The notes under the pieces are model-generated. The model was not told where the DNA came from. It worked only from the letters and a program-made list of their open reading frames with translations, and searched no databases. Below, piece after piece: positions 47,328-62,900 of a stretch of DNA of 64,000 nt; the first letter of the stretch is position 1; each line of letters begins with the position of its first letter. The DNA is from Diprion similis (Eukaryota > Arthropoda > Insecta > Hymenoptera > Diprionidae), in the NCBI RefSeq assembly GCF_021155765.1, contig NC_060118.1, forward strand, positions 8,060,001 through 8,124,000, written 5' to 3'. The position numbers and the translations under genes are program-made.

Positions 47328-49985
47328 AATATTCTACGTTTTTGACAAGTCGCTTCGATTGAAAATAAAAATGATATTAATATCCTTTTTTCAATTGTAT
47401 AAAACAAATTTGAAATAATGATCTAATGTGTCAGATGCCTCATAATTATTGACAGTCAGACCTTTCAAGAGAGAAAATATGGGTTGAAATTGTCTTTAAC
47501 ATTGAAGAGTTATTGTCTAAATTGAATTTAACGTGACTGACTCGGGTCGAAACTTTTGAACCTTTGATACACAGATTTGTCATACTGAAAGTGTCCTAAA
47601 AAAAATTTCAAACCACACTTTTTAATAATTTTATTACGAGATAATTGTATACGAATATTTATCAAATTGATGAATTCTCAATCCACGCCATGTGGTAATA
47701 AAATAAAAGAAAACTATCGATTTTCTGACAACCAATTTCGTTGAGCAAAAAACCTGAAAAAAAGAAGTTCTCTACAGTCAGTCTAAAAAATTAACACGCT
47801 AATAAAATCCAATTTCTTCCAGCCAAACGTTTGAATGGAATTTTTTTATTCCTTTCTCTCTCTCTTCTCTCAATGAGTGCTGCACATACCTCCATGTATT
47901 ACTGAAATCAGGGTTAATAAAAGTCGTATAAAGCTTATTGTGAATTTGAAAATGCGAGGAAATAAATTCAGGCACATTAAGGGGTAATAAAATTAATCAA
48001 AGTATCATTTATGCTTGTGTTGAATATATATTTGCGTCGATGAGTCTGTTTTTGTTTTAATTTTTACAATACAGGCTATGATCATCGCACCTTGAAAATC
48101 ACATGCGATTTTCGTTTCATTACATTTTTGATATCGATCATTTTATTTTAGTTTTAGGCACTTTTGAAAATTTATATATGTATATATATATATATAGATA
48201 CCTACATACGTATTTATATATTTTTGTTATTATAATATTCAGTAACACACTCTTTTTTCTCACATACCCAGGCACTGCACACAATACTGATAATTTTTGA
48301 AAATTATCGTAAAATGGCGCCGTTCAATTATGTTACATTATGCAGACTTTTATTCACATACAATAGAAAAAAAAAATTAGATCGAATCATTGGGCAAAAA
48401 TCACTCGTATGCAATATGAGAATGAAATTGCTGGAGTTAAGTTTCTAAAATAATTCTGAAATTAGGAAATGAAGGTTTGAAAAAAAATTCATCGCCACTT
48501 TAACGTCGCAATCTTCAACTTCGTAGAAAGAAACAAATAAAAGACAAAGAAACGAGAAATGACTTGCTTTTACTTAACTTTTAACACGTTGCATTTTACA
48601 CATTTTACAGCAATAATTTACATGTTAGAACGAGAACCTGCATTACTACTACTGTTATAATAATGATACTAATATGTCACCTGCACGATTTATGCGTAAA
48701 ATTGTCCGAATCATTGCAAAAAATATAATATTGATTAGACGAGGTTCAAACTCTCTTGATTCTTATTTCTTATTCTGTTTTGTAATTGAACAATGACATG
48801 ATCATTGTGATCTTTACAGAAAAAATTACGCGGAAGCTTATCGTACGATATAAACTACTCTTTATCTTAGGCCATTATAACTCCAAGCCTTAAGGTAATC
48901 CAGTTCTTCGCGAAATATTATAAAACCAAATTAGATTTTTATACAATTCATACAATTTATTACAAGCAGTATATAATTGTTACGTTTGATAAGATAATTT
49001 TAGAATATTTCCAGTCGAATTCGAATTAGCGTTAACTATTTCAGGTTATCACACACTTCATTTTCATTCATTCACAGCGATGCAATGCCATCGGATATAT
49101 TTTATTATTTCATATATGATAGGAGAGTGTTAAAATTTGAATCATCGATGTGACTCGACGATACGATGAAGGATTTAACCTGTTGGCTCTTATTTATTAT
49201 AGTTAATTCTTATACCGTTTATTAAAAATTTCGCGAGTGTCAGAATATATTATTCAAGCTTGAGAAAATGTCTAAATGATAACGCGATATATGTATAAGC
49301 GATCGTTATACTTATATCTAGTCGGTAATTGTACGTGTGTTAATGAAACTAGGACGAGGTATATTACATTATTTTACCCTCACGATATAATATTTGGTTT
49401 GACTAGTCTTGACTTACGATTAGTCTCAAGCGCTGGGTAATATTATTACTTCCAGCTGAAAAATAGAGTATTCGCAACTACTCGACATCAATTTCTAATT
49501 TTTCTAGAAAATTCTAAACCTATGTGAATTTTTCTTAACAAAATAAACTTAAAATAAAATAAAATGACATTTGTTCCATTTTTTTTTCCTACTACGACGA
49601 AGAGGCATATTTGGTTAAGATGAATAAAAAATAACAAAATAACAACTTATTTTAAAGATTCATAATTACATTAACGTTACTAACTTTAGCTTGATTAACT
49701 TACGTTTTACAGAAGTGAAAAATTGATAACGTAACGAATTATAATAAAATCACATTCACTCATATTACACATGTGCGTAATAACATAATCATCATAGAGG
49801 TATAACAGACTTACGCTTTCTTGAAAGTAATCATCAAATCGATTAAAGCTCAACAATTAACATCACGATTGACAGTCGAACCGTAAACGCTCGACACGTG
49901 AAACGTATGAAAAAATAAAAGTACAAAACGGTGAACAGTGATGATGAAAATGAATTGAAACAGTAAAAAAACATGGCGGCCGTCT
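47328..49985. other. Non-coding stretch, probably including 3' UTR of the downstream ORF
   Basis: AT-rich sequence with an (AT)n tract (about 48177-48196). The part nearest 49985 is the 3' side of the minus-strand transcript; TTTATT (AATAAA on the minus strand) occurs near 49190, but the true polyadenylation site cannot be chosen from sequence alone. Confidence 0.5.
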
Positions 49986-51938
49986 TCACTCCATTAGTCC
50001 ATTTCTGTCGTAGCTTACGGACCGGAAGGCGTCGTCAACGAGGTCAGTTAAGCACCTGACAGCCTGTAAAAGTGCTGCGAGAAGAAGAGACAACGACAAA
50101 GAGATCAGTTTGCTCGGAACGAGGGCAGCGTTGTCGGCGTTTTGAACGCGGCCAGTTTTTTTCCGCTTCCGTTTCTCGAAGCTGTTTGACTTGAACTGTT
50201 TCGCATTCGGCGAGTCTCTTCCGGCGGTAATTTTGTCCAGAGAGCTTTTTCTCACCCTTGGTGATCTCTCCTGTGAATTTTTCCGCGTCTCGGTCGTATT
50301 TCCGACGCCTGGATTCGACCTTGAATTTTTCCTGGCTTTTTCACCGCTCGGCAAGGCCGATTTTCGACTCGATATTATGCTCTCGATCTTCCGCCGGAAC
50401 TCATCGGTCTTCGCCTCGACTTCGGCCAGTCGATTCCCCTTCAACTTCCGCCTCGACCTTCGACTCGATTGCTCGCTTCGCTTCTTGCCATACAGCGATT
50501 TGTTGTCCAGAGTATCGTCCGACTTCGCCTTGACATTGACCTCCAGGTATCTGTCACCGCATTCGTTTTCACCCTTGAACTGAAGGCTTTCGAAAGAGGA
50601 CTTTCCCCTCCACCCAGGGTCGCCAGTCACCTGAAACATCATCTCGTTCTCATCCAACGAGTTGGTTCTACTGTGGCACTTCTTACTATCCACCAATTTC
50701 TTGTCCTCGATTCTGCTGTTCAAGTTGTCATTAATCTCACGATAATTCGATGACAAGTCCCCGCTGTTCATCGAGTGGGATTTGATATTCTTCCCTGCCT
50801 CCTTGAACCGCCCCTTCGTCGGTGTTTTGCTCAGACTGTTCGGTATGAAGTTGACGTTCTTGTCGACCGACCCACAAAAGCTCGAGTTGCAGGTCCCGAC
50901 AAGTTCCCCGAGATTCGGAGGTGCGCTTGCGACGGGTTTGTCGTCGTTAAACTGCAGCAGGTTATCATCGTTTGTAAAAGTGTCGTGATCGGAGTCAGGC
51001 GACAGGTTCTTGCCTGATATTTTGACGAGCTCGTCACTTTCCTCGCTGAATGTGAACGAGAACTGCCCGCGTTTAACGGACTCTATGTTCTCCGTGCAAA
51101 GCAGGTCCTGGACTTCGAACAAGCTACGTTCGATGCTTGGACTCTTGTACAGCAGGTTCTTCAGCTCCGGAATATCGAGGTCCTGGACCTGGAGCAAGTT
51201 CTGTTCAATGTTGAGCAAGCTCTCCTCAATCTGTACGAGGCACTCCTCGATGTCACATGTGGTGCTGGTCTCCTCGGTGGACCTTGAGGTGCGACTGGAG
51301 TCGCTCCGCGCCGGACTGGACGTGAGGTCGAATCTGGTCTGGCTGTTATAGAAGACCTGGTAGTTGCTGTGGCTGTTGGCAATCTCGTAATTGGCTTCGT
51401 CCCGTGGGATAAGGTTCTCAACCGAGAGGTCCTCGGGCTCTGGTCCAGTCCGACAGTCACTACAGCTCTCAGAGAGCACGCGGTACGTCTCGTGGCTGTT
51501 GGCAATGGACACGCAGTGGCTGTTGGCCTCGGAACTGTGGGACGCCCGGATTTTCCTTGTCCAGGAATCGAAACTGTGAGTATCCTCAGTTAGCAGGTTG
51601 TAGTTGCTGTGACTATTCGCGTCCGGGTAAGTAGCGCGCTCCGGAGTGTTGTCCGAGCTCTGGGAACCACCAAGGAACATGCAACGACTCCCGAGGATGT
51701 TCTCGTCGTCGCTGTCCAGGTTCAGAAGGTTCCTCTGGGACCCGGCAGCTCCTTCCGCGTTCTCAACACTCGCGTCGACGTGGATCTCCACCGGGCACAA
51801 GACCCGCGAACGTCCTATCATCGAGTTGTAGTTGTCACGGTGATCGGCCGCCGTTGTGTCATCTAGGAAGTCGTAGGCGTGAGCTCTGTAGCTCGGGCAT
51901 GGTGTGTTCACCGGCGAATGTGCCATACCGTTCGCCAT
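49986..51938 (-). CDS. 650-codon ORF in frame after the DRAM stop codon; Ser/Asp-rich, unknown
   Basis: One uninterrupted frame from ATG 51938 to TGA 49986-49988. It is not a family I recognise. Seen: three copies of an ANSHxxY motif (about residues 107-113, 146-152 and 187-193, plus a partial ANSH at 138), each continuing into a tyrosine YxxPhi pattern (YNLL 113, YRVL 152, YQVF 193), with a fourth at YNSM 37. A predicted helical segment (about 230-275) contains ELKNLL. A basic region follows near 490-515, and a hydrophobic stretch (about 611-627, LISLSLSLLLAALLQAV) lies near the C-terminus. The reading frame is the same as the DRAM gene upstream; only a TGA and nine sense codons separate them. 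CAG directly precedes the ATG and could be a phase-0 splice acceptor. It could be a readthrough or alternatively spliced tail, or a separate protein. Confidence 0.75.
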   Translation of the reverse strand: MANGMAHSPVNTPCPSYRAHAYDFLDDTTAADHRDNYNSMIGRSRVLCPVEIHVDASVENAEGAAGSQRNLLNLDSDDENILGSRCMFLGGSQSSDNTPERATYPDANSHSNYNLLTEDTHSFDSWTRKIRASHSSEANSHCVSIANSHETYRVLSESCSDCRTGPEPEDLSVENLIPRDEANYEIANSHSNYQVFYNSQTRFDLTSSPARSDSSRTSRSTEETSTTCDIEECLVQIEESLLNIEQNLLQVQDLDIPELKNLLYKSPSIERSLFEVQDLLCTENIESVKRGQFSFTFSEESDELVKISGKNLSPDSDHDTFTNDDNLLQFNDDKPVASAPPNLGELVGTCNSSFCGSVDKNVNFIPNSLSKTPTKGRFKEAGKNIKSHSMNSGDLSSNYREINDNLNSRIEDKKLVDSKKCHSRTNSLDENEMMFQVTGDPGWRGKSSFESLQFKGENECGDRYLEVNVKAKSDDTLDNKSLYGKKRSEQSSRRSRRKLKGNRLAEVEAKTDEFRRKIESIISSRKSALPSGEKARKNSRSNPGVGNTTETRKNSQERSPRVRKSSLDKITAGRDSPNAKQFKSNSFEKRKRKKTGRVQNADNAALVPSKLISLSLSLLLAALLQAVRCLTDLVDDAFRSVSYDRNGLME

Positions 51939-51965
51939 CTGACCACCGCCCCATGTTCTGCCCGA

Positions 51966-54900
51966 TCAAATGATCGTCGTCGGTGGTTTTGGCTGTGGCA
52001 CCTCGTCCTGGCTCTCGTTCAGGACCTCGTTGCTAGTTCTCATGTGACCCGGTTTAAACAGTATCTGCGAAAGAGATTTTCTTGGTTATTTAGAGCGGTT
52101 GTTGACTCTTCGGTGATGGTTACTCTTCCTTGGAATCACCATCATCATCATTATCATCATCTTTTATAAATGCGCGTAGTGCGCAGAGTATATTTATCGT
52201 TCTTGATCGACGAATCCGATCACAGCTTCAGGATTCTGCTCACGTGTCTCCGACTGTCTGGCCATTGTCACCGCGGTTTCTATCGCGATAAAACTTAATG
52301 AATAAGTAATGAGGATCCAGCAGGCTCACCTTCGGTCGCTTTAGCTGAACGCCTCGAAACTCGTCGGTGAAGGTAAGGATGTAGACGCAGAAGCATCCAG
52401 CGCACAACCATTCGGCAACCGTGCTTGCCACGTGCAGTTCCCAACCGCCATCTGCCTTGTACCATTTCCTGGGATTGTCACCTGAAAATACACGTGAATA
52501 TTCATTGTCCATCGCAGCGTGATGACCGTAAGGTTAAACGGTGCACAAAACTAGCAACAAGTTCGTCTCCTGCATATACATAATTGCATAATGCATGTCG
52601 GTTGCAGAGACCTCAAAGTCCGATATCGGTGATTCGACTCATTCAAAGAGTTCATAAAAAATCAGCCCACTGAATTATTTATCAACCTTCCACTACGATC
52701 TTGCATCCAAACCGGTGCGGATTTATGCAAGAAGGTTGAGTTCGCGCCAGGAATTCAGGATTAAAAACAAATAAAATGCTTCCAAAACGGCTCGTCTGGA
52801 TAGTTTTTAACCCCTTGCTCGTAACTAACCGTGATACTTCAGCCGGGCCAAGACCGCGGTAACGGTTCCAACGATGAACAGGATTGTACACGAGAGTACC
52901 AGGGACAGACGAATATGCGCAATCCTGATCGAGCACCCTAGTGGATGTAGATAGTAGGAGCAGAGTACCTGAAAAAAGCGAATCAAACTTGAAAGTAAGT
53001 GGAACAAGGGGAGCAGAAGACACCTGTGGTCGGTAGTTTCTGGTTTTTTTTGTAACGCACGCTGATCCTGATCTTGATCAAGTCGAGGCTTACCTGGGTC
53101 CAGAAGTAGGCCGTTCCGCATCCGAAGCAGACAAGCGCTCCGATCAGATGAACGACAATGACATTGGTCTCCTGGAAGTTTGCAACCATGGACAATCCGA
53201 GGCAGGTCAAGAGGCCGAGGATCAGAGCAGCCCTGTTCCACTTTGGCAACGAAGCGTTGAACTGGTAGGAGCTGGAGAGTTCCTTGGTGTGGGAATACCG
53301 TATGTAGATAACGACGCACACTGTAATACAAACGAGCAGAGATCAGCGAGGAGATCGTTTACTCTCTCGCACACTAGGGATAAACAAAGACACGTTGAAG
53401 TCGTGGTAACGTCAAGGACAGTGCGAATGCGGTGCTCATTTCAAGGACTCTCATACTTTTTGACATAATCGAAATTATTTATCGATGGTAGGAGTGTGAA
53501 GTCTGAAATTCAGAGTAAATTTATGAGCTTCTATCTTTACCTCATCCACTTGTGCATCGATTCTACTGATAAAGACCTTATCACCTCGTGTACCACACCA
53601 ACGGCGACGAGTGAAACTTTTGCCAAGTCATGTTTTTGCGAGTAAACAATGTGAATAGCGATAAATTGCGGTTATTAAATGATCTGATAAGCCACTCGAA
53701 CCCGGAGATAATACACTCGAAGAATGTTATGTTGTACTCATTTCGTAATCCTCTGATGGCCGTTAATACCATTGCAAAAACGTGTAATGGGAGCAATAAT
53801 ATCAGTGTAATAACATAATAACAATAAAAAATCTACCGATTAGCTGATCAATTGCAGTAAAGAGTCACCTATACCGATGCCGACAAACAATGAATCGTTT
53901 AACTGTTCACACCTTCTCGGGATCAATGGATATGGACAGATATTTTTCGAATCTTTATGCCAATTCAACGCGTCATGCTTATACCGGTGCGGAGAAAAAC
54001 AATCCAGTAACGATTTTGACATAATCACGTCTAGTTCTGGTGTGAAAATTGCAACTTAAAATTTTGAAACGACTTCCAAGGAGTTGAGTTTCCAAACACG
54101 AACATGTTTTGCTTTGTTATCATTGACTGAGTGAATTTCAAACAATCCCAAGGTTGAGAACTAACGATTTTCCTAAACATGCATCATTAAAGTAACGTTA
54201 CCAACTTCAAAATCATCGCGGAAGTCAGTCGACACTTGAAGTCTTCTTCCAGTTGTTACTTCGTGATCACCGATCGAAGTAATCAATTCGGTTGACTTTG
54301 ATGAGTCATCACGAAGTGAGCGGTGCTCTTTCGCTAGTTTTGAAGTTGACTTTGGTACCGTTTCAATATTGGCACTTTGCCAATTTTGCTCACTTTGTTA
54401 CTAAGGATTTGAATCGCGTCACCTTTCTGTTTGGCAACAGCTCATCGCCGGTGACAATCAGCAATTTAACTGTCACGTGTCGGATTATACACACTCGTGT
54501 ACCGTTTCTGTGATACTTTATAGCCAGTTACAAACGGACGTTAACTACTTCCTAATCGGTAATACGGCTGGTTCAAAGACCCCGCGATTACGTCAAGTCG
54601 AGAGTCACTGTCGGATCAGTGAATGGAGAGACCAAAGTCTGTACTCTTTCTCTTTCTCTTTCTCTCTCTCTCTCTTCAAGTCTTGACCTTGAATCGCAAT
54701 GTTATCTCACTTCCAAGGCTTCCCTGACCCAGTAAATATATCGGGAAATAATGATGATTAGAGTGATTTAAAAATCCAGCAATAGCTTGTAGAACTACAT
54801 TTTTATAGGAATTAAGATGCTTCGCGAGAAAGGTATAAACTGTGAAAGAATCTTTACCTGAGTAGGTAGGTACGCGCATATATTATTAGGATGTTACACA

Positions 54901-57900
54901 ATATTTAAATCGCATTTACGACTCTGATCACGTATGTGGCTGCGACCCTATTTATCAAATATCAATGTTTTTACCTACTCGAAGTATTACCGAGGAGATA
55001 AACAAATGCAAAGTATTTTCAAGGCGAATCGTTCGGCGGTGATTATTGACCCCGAGATTCTTTCGAAATAGAAATTCGGTCCCACCTATATCTATAGAAC
55101 GAGTCACAATCGTGTCCCCGCAAAGTAAGTGGCTATCTTTTATTTCTCTACTCACTTGTCGCAGCTGCCATGTTTATTATTTGAGCAAAGATGCAACTTT
55201 CTGGCGGGTAAGTGGCCGTGTCCGAAATGTAGGGGAATCCCGCCTCCACGTGTCCCAACGTAACGGCAATGATGTACCTGCAATAAAACTAGAGCATGTA
55301 TCCTAGAAATTATTATCTTACGGCATGGGCATTAAAAAGTCCACTTTTTGTGGCAGTTTTCGTTCCGTAAAGTGACGCTTTATACGGCAGCGAACAAAGT
55401 TGCAGAATAAAGTCTTTATTCCGCAGTTTTGATGCGCAGTTCGAAGTGCGCATCCCAAACTGCCGAATAAAGTAGCTTCGTCGAACAGATCGCGACATAA
55501 CCTCACTCTTCGTTTTGCATTTCAATGCTCATACCGTAAAAAATATTTTATGTGGCATGTCCGTAAACCATTTTTTGCCTCGGATAATTTCAGTACTCGC
55601 TTCCGGCTCGCTTCCGGCTCGCCTTCAGCTCGTCCTGAAATCTTTATCCTTGCCAAAAAAACAGGCGATTTACGGGCATGCCACATAAATAGCTATTCTT
55701 CTACAGCAAAAAGTTGTTGTCTTATGAATCTTCACTTGACGTGTACGAATTCAAACCACCAAAACCATGAGTTTCAAATCGTAACTGCCACAAGTTGCCT
55801 TATGAATCAATATTCGACGTGAGATCGCGAGAGAATAAATTACTCGCTTTGGTCTGGGAATTTTTCATTCGTTTTATTTTTTCTCTCAGCCTGAGTTCGC
55901 GAGAATTTATATCCATGTAATCAAGGTGTCGCAAGTTATTGCGTGTTTTTTAAGTGATCTAATGTATTATAAGCTTATAGGTATATCGCACGATGAGCTC
56001 GTATGTGACTGCATATCTTTGATAGATTTTCATCGCTACTAATGCGGTTATGGTATTTGTATAAACGATATGATATCGCTACGTGAAAATTCATTTATAC
56101 AATAACGAACCCGCAGGTGTATAATTTATTGAATCATTATCAGACACAGCAAACATCACGTCGAGTTGAGTTTAAAATACTGGCAATCTTAGGTTGTATT
56201 ATCGTTGCTGTTATGTAAGTGCAAAAGAGGCGGAAAATGTAAAGAATAAAACCACGTCTGAGAATATTATCGTGTAAACGGATGTTGGAACGGAGAACAT
56301 GAATCGCAGATAAACTTTGAATAGTCCGAAGCGCATGATCATCGTTTTTCTTTTACGGTTTTTGTTCCTCGTATTCTTGGTTCGTTTGCTTGTTGTTGGA
56401 TTTTTTCAAAATCTCTTCAGTCCAACCCCAAAAATATATTCGCGACTTGTTTAATACAGAGAATGGATTTTATTCGTTGAAATTCCGTGTTATTTTCAGA
56501 CATAACAATAATAATAATGATGATGATGAAAATAACTCCCACGAGATTTAACCAGTGCCAAAAATATCTTATTAGATATAAGATATAGCGGAATGAAAAA
56601 TCGCGTAGTATCCGTGAATCTGTCTCGTGAAGGATTCTTCAAGCCTTTCAACAATCGCTAACCGTTGCGAGACTGAAACTAATTGAACAATCCTCTTATA
56701 TTAATGCGCTGTAATCCAATTTAATTTAATTTAACTGAGGACGTATATGATATGTTATATATGGGGCATTCCAGCTGGACTCGATCTACCTTTGACCTCA
56801 TGTTTTCGGATTCAGTTTTCAATTTTTTTTCATATTTCTTAAATCAAACGGTTTCCAGTTATAATTCTTCGCAAATGGCCTTTTTTTAAAAAATCACTTT
56901 ATTCAAGACCACTTAGCAAAAAAACGTGAGGCTCGACAAAAAAATTTCACGTAAGTAAAATACTCAAATCGATTCAAAGTTTCATTAAAAAAATCATGAA
57001 GCAATCTACCACTTCCCCAAAGTTGATTTTTTTCTTCTTCAATAAAAAAAATTCATTTTTCGTCAAGTACGTCATAAATAATTTAGCCCGTATTTTTTTT
57101 GTTCAGAAAAAGTTGCATTCGTTAAAAACATTTAAAAACCCGGAATATTATGCCTCGACTTCTCGTTAAAAAGTTAAAACGATTTTAAATCGATTCGGGA
57201 GAGTCATTGGAACTCAAAACTCGACAACGTTTCGTGAAAGAATGAATAACTAGTCTCGGATGACGTAAAAAAGGTTTTTCCTGTTTGTTTTTATATATTA
57301 CTGAATAAAATGAAATGAATTAAAAAAAAAAAATAAAAAAAAAAATAAAAATTAGAATGAAAAAAAGTTATTCCCATTTATTTATATACAAATATAAATT
57401 CGAATACTGGTAATTATAAGTATTGCATCACGTCTAGCTGAAACGTGCCGTGGTGTTAATGAAATTTTTACGAGTACAAATACAGCGAGTGATTTGCATT
57501 TACGTCTAGAAGAGTGTATTCAGGTACGTTAAACAAAGTGCAAACGGTCACGTACTTTAAACGGTTAGAAAAAAGTAAAAATATACACTAACGATTATGA
57601 TGACAATAAAGAAGCAATTGAACACCGTCTGGTTCTATTGACCTGAATTCTCTATTGTCCGAGAAAAAAGATATGTTTGTTAGCCCATTTATTATTATTC
57701 ATAACTCAACGAATTTATTTAACGTTCAATCGTGCCATCGGGTAATTAGTCGGATTTTATCATCGACTAACGATCGTGTCGAGGAGTCTTATCGTTTTTT
57801 TTTTTTTTCAACTCTTCTAGCTTCTTTAATTTCTTAACGGTTTCAATTTATCTAATTCGAAATTTAGCGCCTTGACTTGATCCGCGTGCAACAGCTTATG

Positions 57901-59280
57901 CTGCACTGAAAAAGGCCTTGAGGAAACCCTGAGACTTAATGAGAACCTTAGAATCATTAAACAAGAGGTGAACGGTTGGGCAACTCGACTTCTACTTCGA
58001 CGACTACACACGCACTTTGATTACCTTCCATGGAGATACGTACGTATAGTTTAAGGCAATGTGCAGCATTTGCCCTCGAATTATAAGGCAGACACTTGCG
58101 CACCTTCTCCTTTCTGTTTTATAACAGCTGTGAGAACTCGTTAAGAAATTCAAAGTGTAATTGTTTTTAGATAAAAAAAAAAAAAAAATTCCTCTCGGAC
58201 GTCTTTCGTAAGTTTAAGTTAAGATCAGAAATTCTGTGGGAAATTATGACTCAATCGCACGTTGTAACTGACAATTGTTCCATGAGAAAGTTTATTTCTT
58301 GAGTCGAGTTAAGGAATTCAATTCCACCGTATTGTTTAAGTGGTTTTTCAGTGGATTCTAAAATCAGTGATGTTAGAGGGATAGAGAGGTTAGAGAAATC
58401 AATTCTTCGGTGTAGTTGCGATAAAAATTTTTCTCCCACACTCGGAAAAACAAAATATGACTAATAAGTATTATTTTTTTTCAGTTCAATAGATTTCAAG
58501 TGTGATTTCAGTTATGAATATCAATTTAAAATTCAGTGTAATTTCATTGGAATAAGATATCTTTTCGATTTCAGTGTTATTCTAGTGGTGGAGTCGAAAG
58601 TTTTTCAATTCAGTGATTATTTTTAGGTGGGACTTTGTTGTATCCTTTTAATATAATTACAGTGAAAATAGAGTGTAAAAAATTCTTAACTCCACTGTGA
58701 AATCCAAGTGTAATCGAAATGAAATGAAATCTAAGTGTAACTTTGGTTTTGTTTCAGTGGGAAGGAAACCACCAGGGATTGCTTGAGATTTTTTCAAATT
58801 CCAAGTCGAGCTGAGAGTCTGATGTCAATCCTCACAGTCTTGACTGAAAAATTTCCAGCCACGTTTTCTCTCTGCCACTGTCAATCTGCCATACAGTTAC
58901 ATCCAGTGTTATTTTATACAAAACTTACGACAATTTGTTTACCTCAGAAATCAAGATTATACTCTCAAAATGTATAAGTTGAGAATTTGGAAACAACCTG
59001 GACAGATCCAGTTTCGAAAAAAGGTAGATTAAGAGTAGATTCAAGTCAGTCATGCACTTTGTAAGACGTTTTTAGTGCCCACTTGTCGTCTCTTGAATCG
59101 TTTGGCGTGATTTTTATTAATTGTAACAAATTTGGACGAACTTTCAGACAAAAAATTCCAAAAATTCTTCGATGCTGGTTTGAAAAATACAACTTACGTC
59201 ACGATGAAGGTCGTCGGTATGAGGATGAACAAGAAGATGGGAACGTAGTGGAGATTCTCAAGGGTCTTTTCGATCTCCAT
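51966..59280 (-). CDS. DRAM-family six-span membrane protein (autophagy modulator)
   Basis: Join of 59198-59280, 55156-55277, 53094-53320, 52830-52968, 52330-52481 and 51966-52064 gives 273 aa; all junctions have GT donors and AG acceptors and keep frame. Hallmarks of the Frag1/DRAM/Sfk1 family are visible: PYISDTATYPPESCIF after the first span, LTCLGLSMVANFQ in span 3, HLIGALVCFGCGTAYF in span 4, and HVASTVAEW before the last span. Six hydrophobic segments fit the family topology with both ends in the cytosol. Vertebrate DRAM1 and DRAM2 (238 and 266 aa) sit in lysosomal or endosomal membranes and promote autophagy. The start MEIEKTLENLHYVP at 59280 is the only suitable one. Intron 1 is 3.9 kb and holds repeats. 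The stop TGA (51966-51968) is followed in frame by a 650-codon ORF. Confidence 0.93.
52138..52161. repeat. (CAT)n microsatellite
   Basis: ATCATCATCATTATCATCATC lies in the intron before the last DRAM exon. Confidence 0.9.
54644..54676. repeat. (TC)n tract
   Basis: A TCTTTCTCTTTCTCTTTCTC-type pyrimidine tract lies in the DRAM intron between exons 2 and 3. Confidence 0.9.
55312..55697 (-). mobile_element. Double-hairpin interspersed element, copy 2
   Basis: This is the same element as 12917-13292 in reverse orientation, in intron 1 of the DRAM gene about 35 bases from exon 2. It differs by a small direct duplication, CGCTTCCGGCTCGCTTCCGG, where copy 1 has a single unit. The inner palindrome around GATGCGCAGTTCGAAGTGCGC is preserved. 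Confidence 0.8.
56764..57065 (+). repeat. Interspersed repeat, left member of an inverted pair
   Basis: It begins GCATTCCAGCTGGACTCG and continues through TTGACCTCATGTTTTCGGAT. The same sequence in reverse orientation is found at about 59660-59977. No ORF is present. Confidence 0.72.
58455..58760. repeat. Degenerate CAGTG/AGTGTAA array
   Basis: Loose repeats such as AAGTGTGATTTCAGT, CAGTGTAATTTCATTGG, CAGTGTTATTCTAGTGG and AAGTGTAACTTTGG recur at 25-50 base intervals in DRAM intron 1. The units are too diverged for a clear period. Confidence 0.45.
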
Positions 59281-59659
59281 GACTGCAGAAGGGCCCGAAA
59301 CAGGGGCCGGAGATACTCGTTGCGTGTCGAACGCGTTTCAAAATCGTTCCGCACGGTTCAAGCTCCGGAGCTACTCTGTCAGAGGCGACGACCACTCATG
59401 AGCTATTACGGCAAGATATCCAGGAAACGTTATCGTACCTTGTCATGCCATGGCTCACGCTGACCTTTCAATCGGAATCGCAGACTCTTTTGGCCGTGGT
59501 TCGTTCTGCGACAGAAAACACACAGGATAATAATTCCACTCACTTATCCGCCAGTAGTGGTCTAAAGTTGCACTTACGGAGAGGTGAGTGAATTGAAAAT
59601 CGATATAACTTCATGTTTATTTGATTTAAAAATGGTCTTTGGAAAAGAGGAAATGCACC

Positions 59660-59977
59660 TTTTAGTGGAAAAAAATTTGGACCAAATTAATGTTTTTACT
59701 TTAAGAAGAAAGAAAATCAGCTTCGGCTAGGCGTAGATTTGTTCACCTTTTTTTTATGAAATTTTGAATTGAACTGAGTATTTTGTTTTGATGAAATTTT
59801 ATTGTCAAATCACAAGTTTTTGTCGTATGTCCTCTTGAATAATGTAATTTTTTAAAGAAGATGATTTGAAAAAAAATGATAACTCAAAGCCGTTTTATTT
59901 GAAAAAAAATCTGAATAAATTCGAGAACTGAATCAGAAAACAGGAGGTCAAAAGTGAGTCAAGTTCAGCTGGAATGC
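59660..59977 (-). repeat. Interspersed repeat, right member of an inverted pair
   Basis: Reverse-complement copy of 56764-57065, ending GTTCAGCTGGAATGC. It lies about 400 bases upstream of the DRAM start codon, so the pair brackets the first coding exon. Confidence 0.72.
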
Positions 59978-62900
59978 GATATAAATATTATGAATACTCT
60001 ATATGCGACTATCTCGTAATGAAATGCATACAAAAGTACAGATTCTCTCATGAAGTTCCTAAAAATGAATTCACTGGATAGTTATTCGCAAATTCTCACG
60101 GTCAACTACTGTTCCCAATTATCATAACCATGATCAGAATATCTTCGTACATGCAATACGACCTAAATAAGCAGTTTATTGCCTTTTCTACGATGATGGG
60201 TTAATTATTCTTTCGTCGTTTGCTTATTATTTTATCTGGCATATAAAAATGCAATTCTTTTTTATTTTTGCAGGCGTCACCTTCCTTGGACTGATCCAGA
60301 AGAACTTTTTGATTCACCTGGATCGACGGAAATACTACAGACAATCAAAACTACTAGCAACATACGTGACATTTATCCTTCATAAGTTTGAAAAGTTTTC
60401 ATCTACACTTATGTTAATCTTCGTGAAAAGTTTTGTTATTACAGTTTAATTGTACGTTAAGTTAACATCCATAATCGTTTCCTTAAACTTGAACAAAATT
60501 ATCCACGATTTAGTCTCCTGTTCTTCTAATTGAAAAAAAAAAAAAAAAAAAATACTTGGAAGTTCTAAACCTAGAAAAACTTTTCACAGCGTAGAAAATT
60601 TTCCCCACGAATAGTTAGATAATACTAATAAAATGCATTTAGAATTCAAATTATATTAATAAATTTTTTATTTATTTTAAGAACTTATCGCGTGAAGTCA
60701 CCACTTCCGGATTACGTCTTCACGTGAATTGGAAAAACTTCGATTATTGAATGCTTTGTTGTGAGATGCAAAGTGTCCGGTCATTGTTGGGACAGGGAAT
60801 TGTTGGTACCTGCAAAGGCCCGGAAACTTTGTACCAAGTGTAAAGTTTCTTTTCTCGAAATGCACTTTCGACGGTGAATCGTTAAGGGCATTCGTCGTGT
60901 CCTCGAAGATACCAGAAGATATTCATTCAAACCTTAGGAAATAGGTATTTAAAAGATCCCTCTGACGCAGGCACAAAAGGCGTTTTATCTTGATTGTCGT
61001 TAAGATTACTTCGTTCACTGTGAAATATGGAAAAAAGAAATCTGAAATAGAAATACCGAGCTAAAACTCAGGGAGCGAATGAAGAAAGTGAAACATTATA
61101 TGAGGTAAAGAAAAGTATAAAACAATTCTCAATAAACTATAGAATGTTGCTACTATCATGATAAATTCAATTAATTCCCCAAATGGCTACATCGAATCTG
61201 AATCAAACAGCGAAACTTTGACCTGGGAATTCCAGAAGTATTATAATCGATTTTCCTGGACACCCTGATGACAAGCCCAATTAACTTCCGGTGAGAATAA
61301 AGTACTCATGAAGGCGTAATAAGAATAGAAAAAATTAGGCAGTTTAATGACTTTAAGCTAATTGTGAGACGTTACATCACTTGCTGTATTCACGATCGCA
61401 GATTCAAAATGGTGAAAACGTTTCCCAAGTAAATTCACGAGTTAATTTGCTTCGAGAAATTAAACAAAGATGTCATTTCGTTTCAAGAACCGCAGAATAA
61501 ATTATCCGCTGATAATCAGAGTACACGACAAGTGTAATAATAAGCATGAGGTAAGTAAAAGTAATCTTATGACACGTGAACGTCATGGTGTAATTAATAT
61601 CCAATCACGCGTAATAGTGAAATATTATACACGCGTATTAAGATTTCAAAAATTTTTTTTCATGATTTATTCACAATCTAAACCGCATAGTGGCTACGCA
61701 GCCTTTGACGAGCGTCCAGGCCCGTATAAATTAAACTCAACTACATTAGGAAAACGAGTCGATAAAAGTGGAAATACGCAACCGACTGATAAAACTGCCA
61801 AAAAAAATAAAAAAATAAAAACGAAAGTTTCCTGGGAATAATTATCGGTCTGAATCCACATCCTGGAAGTCATTTCCGCTCCAGACTATGCTGTAATCGA
61901 CACAAATGGCAAAACTCTATTTACCAACTCGACGATTCGACTCCAACTACGCGTCCCCAATTTATTTTCTAACAATAAGAATGATGCGTGTGTAGCTGAG
62001 CGCGAAGTCGACTCTTTGTCTCCAATCAAAAATAGCCTCTCCCCGTTATTCTCCGTTGCCAAACGTCGAATGTGTGTTAATAATATATTGCACTTGTTGA
62101 AGGATCAACTATCTTGTTGTCAATAATAGTGCGCGTGCTTCAATCCGGTAAAAATGAATTCGATTTCGAAAGACCCTCTCATCGTGTCAATTGGAACGAA
62201 ATTAAGGGGTAACACCGTGCACTGTAAAAACAAAAGAAAAGCTCTTTTTGTCCATTTTTCTTTTGTTTATATAGATGGAAGAAAAGGTAATAAGATAACA
62301 ATATATTTAACTCATATTTTACCCCCCAACGGCAATCGGGGTTCCTTAAAATGATCCGTCGCGACAGTCTTTTTACAGGTTTCAATTACTCCGCTGATGA
62401 ACCCCTATAAATGGGCCTACCGATACTTATATCCCCCCCTTTGTGGGACAGCTAATTGACCACGATGATGACATGCGGCAGACGTCAATGACTCATTGTC
62501 AGTGTGGATGCTCTCGTGTGGCTCTCATTCCACCTACTCACGATAGTAGCTGCACGATCATATTTCACACTTCATCTCTCTCATTCTCAAATTTTCTTCA
62601 AACGTAAAATACAGGTCCTCAATTCCGAAAAAAAAACTTCTGAAACGACTCGGTAAGCTGACTCTCTCGAAGTCTCTTACACTGAGATAAGATACCACGA
62701 GACGATACAACTCGGAGATAAAAAAAATTGTTCCGCAGCTGCTCAGACATTCTTAAAAAAAATTAGCCACACGTTCGTCGAGTGCTCGACTTAGCGAAAT
62801 GGATAGCGCAACGGTTTTGCGCAACTTGGGATTGGGATGCTACTACACACTACGCTACACTTGTGTGTGGTCGACGTCTTAAACACCGGTATCCAAGAAT

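Follow-up and report, generated by a model that had tools for sequence, protein, structure and literature searches.

In the sawfly Diprion similis, a gene for a DRAM-type membrane protein ends in a TGA that is followed, in the same frame, by nine sense codons and a 650-codon open reading frame (ORF). The locus was analysed in a window of 64,000 nucleotides (nt) from contig NC_060118.1 (assembly GCF_021155765.1, positions 8,060,001 to 8,124,000); coordinates without a contig name are positions in this window. We favor the ORF being an independent second cistron or overlapping gene downstream of DRAM, with a probability of about 0.57. This figure, like the weight given below to stop codon readthrough, is a judgement and was not computed. 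The DRAM protein would end at its ordinary exon 6 TGA, and the ORF would independently encode a second, mostly disordered protein, starting at ATG 51938 or ATG 51926.

The 650-codon frame is protein-coding, because it has no stops over a length beyond anything simulated and its third-position G+C is like that of DRAM. The frame is open from 51965 to the TGA at 49988-49986, a total of 659 codons made up of the nine linker codons and the 650 codons from ATG 51938. Across 1000 simulated sequences (first-order Markov, 1980 nt, ORF composition), the longest open frame in any of the three frames had a median of 131 codons and a maximum of 309. By codon position (1/2/3), the G+C of the ORF is.486/.423/.691, compared with.498/.429/.665 for DRAM exons 2-6. 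Codon usage alone is not decisive, because an antisense frame (0.246 bits/codon) scores nearly as well as the sense frame, which is the best (0.309 bits/codon). Under the model for UDP-glycosyltransferase (UGT) and DRAM genes, the linker scores.37,.75, and.29 bits/codon in its three frames, values at which its coding status is not callable.

The upstream gene encodes a product of 273 amino acids (aa) in six exons on the minus strand. Exons 2-6 match the Frag1/DRAM/Sfk1 family (PF10277) in a Pfam search with 157.5 bits (curated cut-off 30.3; E 4.7e-46), covering profile positions 21-219 of 220. Six Kyte-Doolittle windows exceed 1.6, indicating six membrane spans on hydropathy only. Exon 1 was the sole phase-compatible hydrophobic first exon in a scripted upstream scan, and it was located independently of the initial annotation. 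Exon 6 scores.46 in frame (-.25 and.01 in the other frames). The initial annotation was right on DRAM identity, exon structure, coordinates, frame, and lengths, including the exon 6 TGA, the 659 open codons, and the total of 933 residues obtained when the TGA is counted as one residue between DRAM and the extension. A search of solved-structure sequences with DRAM gave a single match at E 0.66, which was taken as chance. The frame of exon 5 remains open for 29 codons into intron 5 (52329-52240, minus strand), so intron retention would yield another short DRAM tail (VSLLDPHYLF...).

Of 11 matches in a Frag1 search of the D. similis genome, three belong to this gene and two to a tandem paralog; C6 carries three more, C11 two, and C8 a weak one. 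The C6 and C11 matches resemble what we take to be the PGAP2 branch, and they are uninformative on the DRAM tail. The paralog stops at about C14:8125388, 1.4 kb past the window end. Its exons 2-6 measure 122, 227, 139, 158, and 75 nt, compared with 122, 227, 139, 152, and 99 nt in DRAM, with identical phases, and the two proteins share 89 of 241 residues (37%). Paralog exon 6 has 24 codons and a TAA, while DRAM exon 6 has 32 and a TGA, and the paralog ends six aligned residues earlier. It has no long tail; its next in-frame stop is four codons on, and an AATAAA lies 354 nt past its stop. Because the paralog has the same phases, a nearby stop, and no tail, exon 6 with a stop at that place is, as judged from this comparison, the ordinary end of DRAM, and this is therefore evidence against a recent nonsense mutation. 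By the same comparison, a long tail is not a general feature of DRAM in this genome.

Polyadenylation signals and start codons bear on how the ORF would be expressed. The motif scans used the general promoter and poly(A) consensus sequences, including the initiator (Inr), the downstream promoter element (DPE), and their canonical spacing. Neither AATAAA nor ATTAAA occurs on the gene strand from the DRAM TGA to the ORF end, so DRAM mRNA using exon 6 probably carries the ORF; the weaker hexamer AAGAAA occurs in this interval at 50702. The DRAM mRNA would then most likely be dicistronic and extend past the ORF as far as about 49.2 kb. Most plausibly, the ORF would be translated mainly from a shorter transcript starting in the last intron or exon of DRAM. 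Its own start may be at a candidate Inr and DPE pair over the DRAM stop, like that of fly loci with a downstream promoter. The spacing of this pair is exact, it overlaps the DRAM stop, and its A+1 is 33 nt before ATG 51938. In one given single-strand stretch of 126 nt, such a pair is expected by chance at about 0.004, a value uncorrected for the several motif types tried. An upstream TATAAAAG (52168) is a weaker promoter candidate because a start about 30 nt downstream would leave ATGs 52043 and 51954 before the ORF; TATAAA occurs within 300 nt of four of the nine other gene starts examined. The DNA tandem repeat scan gave one short ATC array (52135-52161). In-frame methionines occur at codons 10 and 14 of the open frame (ATG 51938 and ATG 51926). 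Among windows taken from the ORF itself, 0.075 have a methionine within ten codons, and on sequence grounds two early methionines would favor separate initiation.

The predicted ORF product has few recognizable features. No Pfam family was found, and a search of solved-structure sequences gave two matches at E 0.69, which were taken as chance. The ORF is single-copy in the 269-Mb genome, where it matched only itself, and its last 45 residues likewise matched only themselves. Relatives were sought in collections without insects; viral contigs gave no pattern match, and genome contigs gave 22 pattern matches with none confirmed. Serine makes up 14% of residues. Each 50-residue block of residues 1-350 is net acidic, and residues 451-600 are net basic. 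Four NSH motifs are present, three of them with a Tyr at the third residue after the motif, and there are no DNA tandem repeats within the ORF. AlphaFold2, run on the single sequence and weak without an alignment, gave a mean predicted local distance difference test (pLDDT) score of 38.9, with 562 of 650 residues below 50, which fits a mostly disordered product. A hydrophobic stretch at the C-terminal end coincides with a pyrimidine tract. It may be a membrane anchor or, because of this overlap, the signal of an unrecognized intron. The "very long cytosolic tail" of the initial annotation is uncertain because the ORF ends in this stretch. Within the ORF, 50255-50075 on the minus strand has a donor-like site and a strong acceptor-like site that differ in phase; a weaker acceptor with its first exon base at 50063 would be in phase.

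Several observations weigh against a second cistron. For two neighboring genes on the same strand, a shared frame (1/3, assumed) together with a stop-free 27 nt (0.57-0.75 by composition) would arise in roughly one of every four or five cases; frame sharing is much weaker evidence than the openness of the ORF. ATG 51938 has a C at -3. An out-of-frame ATG at 51954, with A at -3 and G at +4, precedes the ORF ATG, and it would be expected to hinder simple scanning, reinitiation, and, in part, initiation on a short-leader transcript. The Inr and DPE match was sought post hoc, and the window contains six such matches (4.45 expected), with at least as many in 28 of 100 shuffles. None of the nine other genes examined has this pair within 300 nt of its ATG, and no local peak in observed/expected CpG occurs at 52 kb (1.08-1.17; window 1.25). 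The RNA fold after the TGA is mildly stable (z -1.9, with nine of 200 shuffles as stable); it ranks fifth of 95 ORF windows, or third with G+C correction, and it leans toward readthrough.

Abundant stop codon readthrough is described for flies, mosquitoes, and bumblebees, and TGA is the stop most commonly read through, according to the papers on which our account of readthrough and dicistronic genes is based (PMC4528330, PMC5100048, PMC3840789, PMC7826183, PMC13170385). If a fraction of ribosomes decoded the DRAM TGA as an amino acid, DRAM would reach 933 residues, of which 659 would form a mostly disordered extension. We consider this possible but doubtful. The shared frame and stop-free linker favor it by about four to one, and in the same sources disorder is frequent among the longer extensions of flies, and extension lengths go beyond 1000 aa. 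Most fly extensions are described as 8-300 aa, however, making this one unusually long (PMC4528330). The stop context, TGA followed by T (TGATCG), is not the strongest for readthrough, as the initial annotation had noted, since the favored base after the stop is C. Leaky contexts (C after TGA; UGA-CUAG; an enriched CAGCAGCA) are enriched and not obligatory in readthrough genes, and none is present at the DRAM stop; CAGCAGCA was not found within 500 nt 3' of the stop or in exons 5-6. A minority of readthrough genes is reported to have RNA structure in roughly the first 100 nt past the stop. The methionines at codons 10 and 14 also argue against readthrough, and there is nothing comparable in the tandem paralog. 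Jungreis and colleagues generally classify a locus as dicistronic if no coding signature is seen between the stop and an in-frame ATG that is conserved (PMC5100048). Dunn and colleagues excluded extensions in which a methionine falls among the first three codons, a rule inapplicable here (PMC3840789). Three features favor a second cistron over readthrough: methionines close to the stop, the context of that stop, and the size of the extension. By our own inference, very long second ORFs would more often be separate cistrons; PMC4528330 makes no such division. The two could also operate together. Regulated readthrough would then give a 933-residue DRAM whose extension would end in a possible seventh membrane segment and tether a disordered scaffold of about 600 residues to the membrane of DRAM, and the promoter over the DRAM stop would express the ORF as an independent cistron, resulting in free and DRAM-anchored scaffold. 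This combination is unlikely.

Splicing past the TGA would be another route to a long-tailed DRAM, in which an alternative acceptor would link exon 5 with the ORF, in phase and without a stop. The donor of exon 5 has phase 0, and AGs of that phase occur past the TGA. The initial annotation had proposed the CAG before ATG 51938 as such an acceptor. Acceptors were scored with a matrix from 24 reference sites of the window (19 UGT, 5 DRAM), assigned by frame and motif, the least certain being five UGT exon-2 sites ending in AAG. The exon 6 acceptor was included in the first, leave-one-out matrix and excluded from a second matrix of intron-side positions only. The site before ATG 51938 scored -6.4 (reference minimum 0.2), at the 34th percentile of AGs on the strand, and -3.4 with intron-side positions only (reference minimum 1.1). 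It has three pyrimidines at -15 to -5, compared with six to ten in reference sites. Fusion at this CAG was rejected, as the site scored below all 24 reference acceptors with both matrices. The exon 6 acceptor (52064) scored 2.5 leave-one-out and 4.9 out of sample, and with the intron-side matrix it was outscored by an out-of-phase AG at 52293 in intron 5. A phase-0 acceptor at 51659 (3.8, and 2.0 intron-side only) is within the reference range, but its use would remove the first 93 codons of the ORF, which are coding-like. Fusion is quite improbable overall. If one long DRAM frame were the normal state, the TGA would be a sequence error or a nonsense allele of recent origin, which would fit the shared frame and the use of a single assembly, but the paralog, which is tail-less, stops at nearly the same place, making this explanation very unlikely. 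Decoding of the TGA as selenocysteine has only the identity of the stop in its favor, and we consider it extremely improbable. No selenocysteine insertion sequence (SECIS) family was among the four matches at E up to 10 in 48000-60000, and a search for tRNA-Sec in the same genome gave nine matches with a best score of 43.1 bits (cut-off 47), with no insect positive control.

Table 1. Positions of the DRAM gene, the downstream ORF, and associated features.
Feature	Position	Strand	Details
DRAM exon 1	59198..59280	-	ATG 59280, 27 codons + 2 nt, donor GTAAGT; hydrophobic, phase-compatible
DRAM exon 2	55156..55277	-	122 nt; paralog length identical
DRAM exon 3	53094..53320	-	227 nt; paralog length identical
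DRAM exon 4	52830..52968	-	139 nt; paralog length identical
DRAM exon 5	52330..52481	-	152 nt (paralog 158 nt); end of Frag1 domain; donor GTGAGC, phase 0
DRAM exon 6 and stop TGA (51968-51966)	51966..52064	-	99 nt, 32-codon tail; acceptor and codon scores, paralog
Linker, nine sense codons (SGRTWGGGQ)	51939..51965	-	27 nt; codon score cannot classify
650-codon downstream ORF with stop TGA (49988-49986)	49986..51938	-	ORF list, composition, simulation
Inr (TCATTT, A+1 51971) and DPE (GGTCA)	51940..51973	-	Candidate start of shorter transcript; motif match
TATAAAAG in intron 5	52161..52168	-	Weaker promoter candidate
First AATAAA past DRAM stop	49218..49223	-	Motif scan
Tandem DRAM paralog	C14:8125388-8126639		Exons 2-6 joined by hand

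Elsewhere in the window, a tandem cluster on the minus strand (3006-36407) contains at least eight first exons that we take, from their sequence, to be UGT-like.

If the locus is dicistronic, it has two long in-phase cistrons with a 27-nt gap, which would be useful for understanding how second cistrons start. If readthrough occurs, the extension would be far beyond most fly extensions (8-300 aa) and would attach a conditional scaffold to a membrane protein of the DRAM type. Under each reading, automatic annotation may wrongly split or fuse DRAM and the ORF. Literature searches gave no paper linking DRAM with a sawfly and nothing relevant on autophagy modulators and readthrough, and we make no wider claim that the locus is unreported.

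Both a second cistron and readthrough are phenomena already known in flies. DRAM1 and DRAM2 (PF10277) have a short C-terminal tail in vertebrates. The D. similis DRAM is similar to them in its six spans, Frag1 domain, and short C-terminal tail, and differs in the long coding ORF directly downstream, which is absent from the tandem paralog. Drosophila kelch and headcase are described as demonstrated readthrough cases. In kelch, a stop reportedly ends the first frame, after which a second, long one continues in the same phase. The D. similis locus shares with them a long in-phase second frame after the stop of the first, whereas here the context is TGA-T, methionines occur soon past the stop, and readthrough is only predicted. 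Fly annotation lists 159 dicistronic pairs (FlyBase release 6.04) and 328 readthrough genes (PMC4528330). Gaps in fly loci with only polycistronic transcripts are given as -34 to 319 nt, and a downstream promoter is the usual source of alternative monocistronic transcripts that cover the 3' coding region (PMC4528330). Like the Drosophila dicistronic pairs, DRAM and the ORF lie on one strand as two frames whose gap falls within the range reported there (PMC4528330), lack a standard poly(A) signal in the interval, and have a downstream-promoter candidate. Unlike those pairs, the two D. similis frames are in phase with a stop-free interval between them, and their shared transcript is predicted from sequence.

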